This document shows positions 2,612 to 15,142 of a stretch of 35,707 nt of DNA, piece by piece. The position numbers and the translations under genes are program-made. Origin of the DNA: Ilumatobacteraceae bacterium (GTDB taxonomy: Bacteria; Actinomycetota; Acidimicrobiia; Acidimicrobiales; Ilumatobacteraceae); contig JAFMNE010000002.1 in the NCBI GenBank assembly GCA_017859395.1, forward strand, positions 82,804 to 118,510, in the 5' to 3' direction. Every line of letters starts with the position of its first letter. The stretch's first letter is position 1. The notes under the pieces were generated by a model. That model ran no database searches. It was not told the origin of the DNA and saw nothing but the letters and a program-made list of their open reading frames with translations.

Positions 2612-2625
2612 CGCACATTTGTGCG
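2612..2625. repeat. 14-bp palindrome between ileS and the dksA-like gene
   Basis: CGCACA-TT-TGTGCG is a perfect six-base inverted repeat starting ten bases after the ileS stop. It has no following T tract, so it is a poor terminator. It lies about 55 bases upstream of a possible -10 (TATCGT, 2668-2673) for the next gene and could be a protein-binding site. Its function is unknown. Confidence 0.35.
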
Positions 2626-2696
2626 CTAATGCTCGAGAAAGGTCACGATTTGGCCATGTGGAGCGGGTATCGTGCTCCGCCGATCAGGAGGTGGTG

Positions 2697-3422
2697 ATGG
2701 CCGCCAAGAAGACCGCATCCAAGAAGGCATCTGCAGCCCGCACGACGCCGAAAAAATCTGCACCTGCAAAGAAATCTGCGGCCGAGAAAGCTGCGCCCGC
2801 AAAGAAGACCGCAACCAAGAAAGTTGCGCCCGCGAAGAAGGCAGCGCCAGCAAAGAAGGCAGCTGGGAAAAAGGCCGTCCCGGCACAGAAGGCGGCGTCT
2901 GCCAAGACAACTGTCAAGGAAAAAAAGGCGACTGCGAAGAAGGTCCAGCCCACAAAGGGAAAGGCCTCATCAGCCCCAACCGCGAAGGAACAGTCCAGCG
3001 GTCTGCCAAAGGCTCGCTTCACCAAGGATGGCATCGGCTACACCAAAGATTTCGATGTCAAATTTGTGAAGGGCCAGCGCGATCTTCTTCTTGAAGAACG
3101 GCAGCGACTGCTGGGGCAGGCCGAGCAACTCACTGCCGAGGCTAACCAACTCATCGAAGAAGCGGAGATGGGCGACGTGCAGTTCGACGACGAGGGCGGC
3201 GAGGGCGACACGATGGCTGTGGAGCGCGAGCGTGACCTCGCGTTGTCGGCCCAGGCTCGAGAAGCGGTCACCGCGATTGATGAGGCACTCGAGCGAATGG
3301 CAGCTGGTACGTATGGGTATTCCGTCGTGTCGGGTCGCCCAATCCCTCGGGAACGCCTCGAGGCCATTCCGTGGTCGACTGAACTCGTCGAGGAGAAGGT
3401 CGGCGGGATCGGACGCCGATGA
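2697..3422 (+). CDS. DksA/TraR-family protein with lysine-rich tail and no zinc ligands
   Basis: A 241-residue protein in two parts. Residues 1 to about 100 are low-complexity Lys/Ala/Pro repeats (AAKK, PAKK) like a histone H1 tail, probably binding DNA or RNA. Residues about 105-241 match the DksA/TraR family: a coiled-coil hairpin (about 125-205), then the zinc-finger fold. Aligned without gaps to the DksA finger (CxxCG...RLEAxP...CxxC), the four cysteine positions are Ser209, Ser212, Leu230 and Glu233, while RLEA and the following Pro are kept, so zinc binding is lost. I chose ATG 2697 over in-frame upstream starts because AGGAGG (2686-2691) sits five bases before it. A -10-like TATCGT lies at 2668-2673. 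DksA proteins bind RNA polymerase through the secondary channel; whether this one does is inference. It overlaps lspA by four bases. Confidence 0.85.
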   Translation: MAAKKTASKKASAARTTPKKSAPAKKSAAEKAAPAKKTATKKVAPAKKAAPAKKAAGKKAVPAQKAASAKTTVKEKKATAKKVQPTKGKASSAPTAKEQSSGLPKARFTKDGIGYTKDFDVKFVKGQRDLLLEERQRLLGQAEQLTAEANQLIEEAEMGDVQFDDEGGEGDTMAVERERDLALSAQAREAVTAIDEALERMAAGTYGYSVVSGRPIPRERLEAIPWSTELVEEKVGGIGRR

Positions 3423-6604: not shown

Positions 6605-7105
6605 ATGAACGAGATGAACCCCCCTGATGCAACCTCCGGAACCGGCGCGATGGTTGGTGGGAGTGAACTCGAGCACCCCGAGTTGCTGTCACAGGACTCC
6701 GAGGGTGCTCAACCGGCCGTCGTCGAACCAGCCAAGGTTCTGCGCATCGGTTCGATGGTGAAACAGCTGCTCGAGGAGGTGCGTCAGGCCCCGCTCGACG
6801 ACGCGAGTCGTGAGCGACTCGTCGAGGTGTACGAGCGGTCGGTGGTGGAACTCTCCGACGCTCTGTCGCCCGAACTGCAGCACGAACTCCACAGCCTGGC
6901 GCTGCCCTTCAGCGACGATGCCGTTCCCTCCGATGCCGAGCTGCGCGTTGCCCAAGCGCAACTTGTTGGATGGCTCGAAGGCTTGTTCCACGGCATTCAA
7001 GCCACCCTGTTTGCCCAGCAGGTCGCGGCCCGACAGCAGATTGAACAGATGCGGCAACTCCCGTCGCGCGAGACCCCGGGGGAGCGACCGGGCACCTATC
7101 TCTGA
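6605..7105 (+). CDS. bpa: bacterial proteasome activator (Bpa/PafE, DUF2587)
   Basis: A 166-residue ATP-independent activator of the actinobacterial 20S proteasome. Residues about 40-145 form the helical core seen in Mycobacterium Bpa/PafE (VLRIGSMVKQLLEEVRQAPLD, then helices with FHGIQATLFAQQVAARQQ). In that family twelve subunits form a ring whose C-terminal Gly-Gln-Tyr-Leu tails dock on the proteasome alpha ring and open its gate. Here the tail is Gly-Thr-Tyr-Leu (codons 7091-7102), keeping Gly, Tyr and Leu. The acidic N-terminus (1-40) looks disordered. GAAGGAGC lies seven bases before the ATG, so unlike many neighbours it has a normal ribosome binding site. Its presence implies a proteasome encoded elsewhere in the genome. 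Confidence 0.93.
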   Translation: MNEMNPPDATSGTGAMVGGSELEHPELLSQDSEGAQPAVVEPAKVLRIGSMVKQLLEEVRQAPLDDASRERLVEVYERSVVELSDALSPELQHELHSLALPFSDDAVPSDAELRVAQAQLVGWLEGLFHGIQATLFAQQVAARQQIEQMRQLPSRETPGERPGTYL

Positions 7106-14799: not shown

Positions 14800-14809
14800 A
14801 CGGTACCCT
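14800..14809. promoter_or_regulatory. bidirectional promoter with overlapping -10 boxes
   Basis: On the plus strand TACCCT (14804-14809) is followed by six bases and GTG 14816 (groES-like). On the minus strand TACCGT (14805-14800) is followed by six bases and ATG 14793 (hydrolase). The boxes share the TA at 14804-14805. Both messages would be leaderless, and each gene's -35 region must lie inside the other gene. Confidence 0.65.
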
Positions 14810-14815
14810 CGCCGC

Positions 14816-15142
14816 GTGAGCTCCGATCGCGACAAGCTGCCGATCAAAATGCTGAACGACCGGCTGTTGGTGCGCGTTGGTCGAGATGACGGTGAACGCC
14901 GATCGAACGGTGGCATCTTGATTCCGGCGACCGCGCAGATGGCCAAACGCCTGGTGTGGGCTGAGGTGGTAGCCGTTGGGCCGAACGTTCGCGCCGCAGA
15001 AGCAGAGGACCGCGTTCTGTTCAGCCCCGACGATCGCTACGAGGTGGAGGTCCAGGGCGAGGACCTCATCATGCTGCGCGAGCGGGATATCCATGCCGTA
15101 GCCGCCGAACGCATCGAGGCCTCCACCGGTCTGTATTTGTGA
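14816..15142 (+). CDS. GroES-like co-chaperonin with a Gly-Leu-Tyr-Leu tail
   Basis: A 108-residue GroES-fold protein. MLNDRLLVRV (12-21), the mobile-loop region GERRSNGGILIPAT (26-39, with the hydrophobic Ile-Leu-Ile triplet that contacts GroEL in GroES), WAEVVAVGPN, DRVLFSPDDRYEVEVQGEDLIMLRERDIHAV complete the fold. It is not next to a groEL gene, so it is probably a second copy rather than the main co-chaperonin. E. coli GroES ends where this protein reads DIHAVAAE; here about ten residues follow, ending Thr-Gly-Leu-Tyr-Leu. That resembles the proteasome-docking tail of actinobacterial Mpa and Bpa/PafE. The GTG start is set by the -10 box six bases upstream. A role with the proteasome is a hypothesis. 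Confidence 0.88.
   Translation: MSSDRDKLPIKMLNDRLLVRVGRDDGERRSNGGILIPATAQMAKRLVWAEVVAVGPNVRAAEAEDRVLFSPDDRYEVEVQGEDLIMLRERDIHAVAAERIEASTGLYL

Follow-up and report, generated by a model that had tools for sequence, protein, structure and literature searches.

The window analyzed here, a stretch of 35,707 nucleotides from an Ilumatobacteraceae genome, encodes a small GroES-like protein ending in Gly-Leu-Tyr-Leu that is probably an unrecognized proteasome cap or adaptor. A link to the proteasome had been proposed in the initial annotation of the gene, and it is supported by the tail being present in 199 of 199 family loci and by the near-confinement of the family to genomes with a proteasome. 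Because of the letters of the tail and this co-occurrence, we consider it highly probable that the protein docks on the alpha ring of the 20S proteasome. If so, it would represent a new fold among bacterial proteasome partners, with a seven-fold symmetry matching that of the alpha ring, and could provide a connection between the chaperonin and proteasome systems; two or three purified proteins would suffice for a direct test of how actinobacteria triage between folding and degradation. The actinobacterial proteasome regulators presented in PMC8223512 are Mpa/ARC, Bpa/PafE and Cpa, and no description of a GroES-like proteasome partner is found among the matches listed in a search of the PMC literature (titles and the starts of abstracts, with subscription papers and preprints outside its range).

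The GroES-like protein and its C-terminal tail

The 108-residue product (Table 1) reads VSSDRDKLPIKMLNDRLLVRV...ERIEASTGLYL, and its translated C-terminus is ...HAVAAERIEASTGLYL. The only Pfam match is to Cpn10 (PF00166; 60 bits, cut-off 21.1), and the NCBIfam GroES models score at most 42 bits, against cut-offs of 96–136. The AlphaFold model of the single chain (mean pLDDT 76, pTM 0.66) is made of strands, except for 3-residue helical turns, with a beta core at pLDDT 84–95 (residues 11–20 and 51–100) and two parts below 50, the mobile loop (residues 26–35) and the tail (residues 105–108); the model thus presents the tail as a free, flexible end. The best matches among solved folds are GroES proteins, with a Z of 10.2 to M. 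tuberculosis Cpn10 (1p3h; rmsd 2.9 over 88 residues), and further matches are the Cpn20 chain of 7EKQ (Z 9.0) and phage T4 gp31 (Z 8.4), a divergent Cpn10-fold co-chaperonin with no proteasome and, to our knowledge, no G-x-Y-L tail. A BPA domain, which is a four-helix bundle, was found neither by Pfam nor in the predicted structure.

Table 1. Positions of the GroES-like gene, its features and related elements in the window.
Feature	Position	Strand	Details and evidence
CDS of the GroES-like protein with proteasome-type tail	14816..15142	+	108 aa, GTG start; translation, Pfam Cpn10 60 bits, AlphaFold model, fold search, orthologues
Gly-Leu-Tyr-Leu C-terminus (predicted G-x-Y-L docking motif)	15128..15139	+	codons GGT CTG TAT TTG, stop codon at 15140-15142; alignment, locus reading, pLDDT under 50
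Mobile-loop hydrophobic tripeptide Ile-Leu-Ile, then Pro-Ala-Thr	14915..14923	+	kept in 199/199 loci; residues 26-35 pLDDT under 50
Shortened roof region, G55 to V67	14978..15016	+	63-row alignment; alignments to solved GroES
Bpa/PafE (bacterial proteasome activator), C-terminus RPGTYL	6605..7105	+	Pfam BPA 212 bits; translation
TACCCT, -10-like box	14804..14809	+	6 nt upstream of the GTG start; possibly leaderless mRNA

The protein shares with GroES/Cpn10 the fold, the Pfam profile and a mobile loop with a hydrophobic tripeptide (I34-L35-I36), although there are departures. First, the chain runs 10 residues beyond the C-terminus of the canonical GroES of the source genome (...RDVLAIVAK), as an arm that carries G-x-Y-L. 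Second, the roof is short: eleven residues lie between G55 and V67 in all 63 rows of an alignment of the family, about 8–10 fewer than in canonical GroES from this phylum (whose span could be measured for 17 of the 21 proteins, the family span being taken from alignment columns). Third, the tripeptide is followed by PAT, where GroES has PDT, and the gene stands apart from canonical groES/groEL. As a member of Cpn10 the protein therefore has the profile, the beta-barrel fold and the mobile loop and lacks the full-length roof hairpin. The tripeptide and PAT are kept in all 199 loci, and G33, P37, A38 and T39 are invariant in the 63 rows. The initial annotation had described a GroES fold, Ile-Leu-Ile in the mobile loop, an extension of about ten residues, a Thr-Gly-Leu-Tyr-Leu end at the codons in Table 1, and a Gly-Thr-Tyr-Leu end on the activator encoded in the window, and this description of the sequence holds in all details checked.

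Conservation of the tail among homologs had been put forward as a check on the proposal, and all 199 family loci end G-x-Y-[LI], with GLYL in 186, GQYL in 12 and GLYI in one; the 167 distinct sequences among them have 154, 12 and one, respectively. A scan for relatives (best 80 of 211 kept) and an order-wide search yielded 110 of these loci, every one ending GLYL. The others come from a phylum-wide profile search of 396 Actinomycetota genomes (completeness threshold 90%), with GLYL in 76, GQYL in 12 and GLYI in one of the 89 loci read; together with four of the former loci, tail letters are available for 92 of the 110 carriers in the phylum. In the 63-row alignment the G, Y and final L of the motif are invariant, its second position is L in 53 rows and Q in 10, and T directly precedes it in 49. 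Between the motif and a conserved RERD..A lies a linker of 10 to 15 residues that varies in its letters, and in columns 98–109 the commonest letter occurs in no more than 39 of the 63 rows (gap columns excepted). On a tree built with the last four residues left out, the second position has undergone three or more switches between L and Q. Docking peptides have this pattern, with a constant terminal G-x-Y-L on a drifting linker.

The ending goes beyond chance. None of 1,685 distinct flanking ORFs of at least 250 aa ends G-x-Y-[LI] (a set including antisense ORFs and some cut by the locus end), nor does any of the 21 canonical GroES read, a set with 15 members from carrier genomes. Among stop-to-stop frames of at least 60 aa in the window, only Bpa and the GroES-like protein end G-x-[YF]-[LIVMF]. 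We also considered that the family might be canonical GroES with a random extension, and rejected this; in one profile search of the 396 genomes there is a clean gap between the carriers (E ≤2.1e-26) and canonical GroES (E ≥7.7e-14), and the tail is absent from the canonical proteins as noted above.

The tail might alternatively be a degradation signal, making the GroES-like protein a proteasome substrate and not a partner. The free, flexible C-terminus of the model would suit this, but the invariant G, Y and L on a variable linker fit docking motifs, the tail is kept across distant families of the phylum, and the substrate signals for the proteasome are Pup or hydrophobic segments, unlike docking motifs; we regard this explanation as very improbable.

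The motif GQYL is that by which Mpa and Bpa dock (PMC4254994, PMC8223512), and the 12 GQYL loci of the GroES-like family match it letter for letter. In the source genome, Mpa ends ...TGQYL, Bpa ...PGTYL and the GroES-like protein ...TGLYL. Bpa is described as contacting R26 and K52 of the proteasome alpha subunit through its Tyr and Leu (PMC11953334), and the PrcA of the source genome (L206:10107-10802) has both when its residues are counted; alignments of solved PrcA chains begin at residue 1. Bpa tails include GQYL, GTYL, GPYL, GAYL and GNYL, with GTYI in one genome, as read in 16 of 19 Bpa regions (L226-L244; no frame was found in L234, L236 and L243). The second motif position of Bpa varies clade by clade. 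A known docking tail thus tolerates different residues at this position, and so does the GroES-like family. In one family (f76) the ending is GQYL everywhere it was read, in Mpa (five genomes and G245), Bpa (six) and the GroES-like protein (nine).

Co-occurrence with the proteasome

Among the 396 Actinomycetota genomes, 108 have both the GroES-like family and prcA, two have the GroES-like family alone, 63 have prcA alone and 223 have neither (Fisher p 6.5e-49, ancestry ignored). A hand count at family rank gives a similar picture, with 31 of 79 families having both, none having the GroES-like protein without prcA, 13 having prcA only and 35 having neither (Fisher p 6e-12, ancestry ignored). 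Within carrier families, members that do not have prcA likewise do not have the GroES-like protein, in f78 (G171, G207, G337), f93 (G185) and f99 (G273, G391, G480). Bpa, for comparison, occurs in 158 of these 396 genomes.

The five prcA-less genomes that were read and that also have no GroES-like family member encode an Mpa/ARC without a C-terminal GxYL (L246, L247, L249, L252, L253). The Mpa motif seems to erode after proteasome loss, and because of its loss in all five, an intact Mpa tail can be used as a witness of the proteasome. Both phylum carriers without a prcA match have such traces. In G245, PrcB is present and its match ends 164 bases from the contig end, and in G153 Mpa keeps GQYL near a contig end, with neither PrcA nor PrcB found. 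The expectation that the tail would be confined to genomes with prcA/prcB is thus borne out in 108 of 110 carriers, with the remaining two having PrcB or a GQYL-ending Mpa. In a sample of the order (148 genomes, with a prcA match in 145 and over the cut-off in 143) there are 127 carriers by hand count, of which three have no prcA match. One of these (G141) has PrcB and an Mpa ending GQYL; a second (G086, 91% complete) has, as its only proteasome evidence, an Mpa ending GQYL; and in the third (G103, 74% complete) neither PrcB nor a GQYL-bearing Mpa was found. It is plausible that G086 is missing a contig with the proteasome genes. Its Mpa stands apart (L282), and in its genus-mate G039 (L284) the cluster from PafA to Dop has no adjoining Mpa, unlike the contiguous source locus L206.

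The reverse dependence does not hold. Of 171 genomes with prcA, 63 have no member of the GroES-like family, including all 20 prcA genomes of f92, and the protein is therefore not a core part. The dependence seems, from these distributions, to be one-sided, with the GroES-like protein needing the proteasome and the proteasome not needing it. The PrcA of one f92 genome (G283) is nearly identical to PDB 3h6f, which we take to be the M. tuberculosis protein, and we thus treat f92 as mycobacteria and their relatives. Bpa was found in a screen of M. tuberculosis for proteins with a C-terminal HbYX motif that are conserved in, and restricted to, actinobacteria with proteasomes, with corynebacteria and bifidobacteria excluded by name (PMC4254994). 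As far as its sequences indicate, the GroES-like family shows both the motif and the co-occurrence that this screen selected for, and its not being found in the sampled f92 would explain why the screen missed it.

These distributions also bear on the possibility that the protein is an ordinary second co-chaperonin for one GroEL paralogue, its tail having some other use and its association with the proteasome reflecting shared ancestry. The lineages of carriers and of proteasomes do overlap by descent, and the GroES fold and mobile loop are retained. However, prcA is present in all 31 carrier families and the two are absent together within f78, f93 and f99; moreover, the tail has the letters of Mpa and Bpa, with GQYL arising repeatedly, and no such tail occurs in the canonical GroES proteins that were read. 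We therefore think that a second co-chaperonin of this kind is improbable.

Possible roles at the 20S proteasome

The role we favor, and think reasonably likely, is that a Cpn10/GroES-fold ring became a dedicated 20S partner, acting as a predicted heptamer that forms a symmetric 7:7 gate-opening cap. GroES-fold rings are heptamers, and a symmetric 7:7 cap would therefore be the simplest geometry. The ring would assemble as GroES does, and each of its seven arms would place its Tyr and Leu at an interface of two PrcA subunits, filling all seven pockets (at R26 and K52) and giving a symmetric cap with no need for ATP. Docking would open the gate, as the tails of Bpa and Mpa do, and the short roof would leave a wide orifice for unfolded chains. 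We favor gate opening on account of the short roof and of a tail that belongs to the gate-opening kind, with the adaptor and plug readings below staying live beside it.

The fold of the eukaryotic 11S/PA28 caps is helical, and they have no homology to the GroES-like protein. They do resemble the proposed cap in being ATP-independent, mainly heptameric and docked via C-terminal motifs (PMC4254994). Bpa/PafE also has a C-terminal G-x-Y-L on a flexible linker, is confined to proteasome-containing actinobacteria and is reported to have no synteny with the proteasome locus (PMC4254994), but its fold is unrelated, a four-helix-bundle dodecamer (PMC11953334), whereas the GroES-like protein would be a heptamer. 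Mpa/ARC has nearly equal last residues (TGQYL in the source Mpa, TGLYL in the GroES-like protein), but is an AAA+ ATPase serving Pup-tagged proteins (PMC8223512) and has no domain in common with it.

That the mobile loop is conserved suggests that the ring has retained a second binding partner, with GroEL as the most likely one, and such a loop would fit an ordinary GroEL lid too. The protein could accordingly be an adaptor, binding GroEL through the mobile loops and the proteasome through the tails, simultaneously or in turn, and delivering misfolded chains, or chains held by the chaperonin, to the 20S core. The invariant loop positions and the tripeptide with PAT kept throughout the family would agree with this, and the source genome encodes one canonical GroES alongside two GroEL proteins. 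However, canonical GroES in the same genomes already serves GroEL, no conserved neighbor, groEL included, is found within flanks of 3–5 kb, and the mobile loop may serve the proteasome face or substrates instead; we see the adaptor as a possibility of less than even chance. A tentative version, which we do not expect to be the case, is a co-chaperonin with two functions, in which a heptamer of the GroES fold would lid GroEL through its mobile loops and dock on 20S through seven G-x-Y-L arms for direct, ATP-independent hand-over; among bacterial proteasome caps it would be the first with a symmetric 7:7 geometry.

The Chlamydomonas co-chaperonins Cpn11, Cpn20 and Cpn23 (7EKQ) are also Cpn10-family proteins, bound to the axial face of a barrel protease, but the protease is chloroplast ClpP rather than 20S and they form a hetero-oligomer. 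We know of no HbYX or G-x-Y-L tail in them. Their position on one axial side of the ClpP core (PMC8889267) provides a precedent for barrel proteases with a bound protein of the Cpn10 type, and the role suggested there for the complex, in coordinating folding and degradation (PMC8889267), would be in keeping with an adaptor. The title of a preprint cited in PMC8889267 states that the co-chaperonin complex inhibits Chlamydomonas ClpP, and this nearest structural precedent raises a further alternative, in which the GroES-like protein docks by the same tail and acts as an inhibitory plug that blocks or stores 20S, or as an assembly factor that aids maturation of half-proteasomes. HbYX-dependent assembly factors are described in eukaryotes and archaea (PMC4254994). 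A plug would sit poorly with a tail resembling the one by which Bpa opens the gate, and the shortened roof speaks against a closed lid, and we find this alternative doubtful.

Source genome and gene surroundings

The source genome (2.25 Mb in 95 contigs, 95% complete) has its canonical GroES gene (L207:2824-3198) adjoining groEL on contig C30, with a second groEL on C37. The Pup-proteasome locus is on contig C49 and encodes Mpa (ending GQYL), Dop, Pup, PrcB, PrcA and PafA, of which Mpa, Dop, Pup and PafA were recognized by eye. Clustering of 370 ORFs from 73 loci (flanks 3–5 kb) revealed no neighbor conserved across the phylum, groEL and the proteasome locus included, and synteny therefore gives no hint of function. 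The broadest neighbor cluster spans eight family labels with sides and strands mixed, and an example resembles an ABC ATPase by eye. Genes of the his and trp pathways lie beside the gene in several Acidimicrobiia loci (by eye), and in the window hisI and trpE are downstream.

In at least eleven genomes of the order, the source included, bpa and the GroES-like gene are on one contig, about 7–50 kb apart and not in an operon (the others are G064, G260, G054, G053, G095, G127, G061, G023, G011 and G019). A TANNNT sequence is located 4–9 nt upstream of an in-frame ATG or GTG in 135 of 199 loci (a raw count), which suggests that the mRNA may be leaderless in much of the GroES-like family. Elsewhere in the window, the segment at 2619-3422 encodes a lysine/alanine-rich histone-like N-terminus (a weak HC2 match, below the cut-off) joined to a region that by eye resembles the DksA/TraR type.
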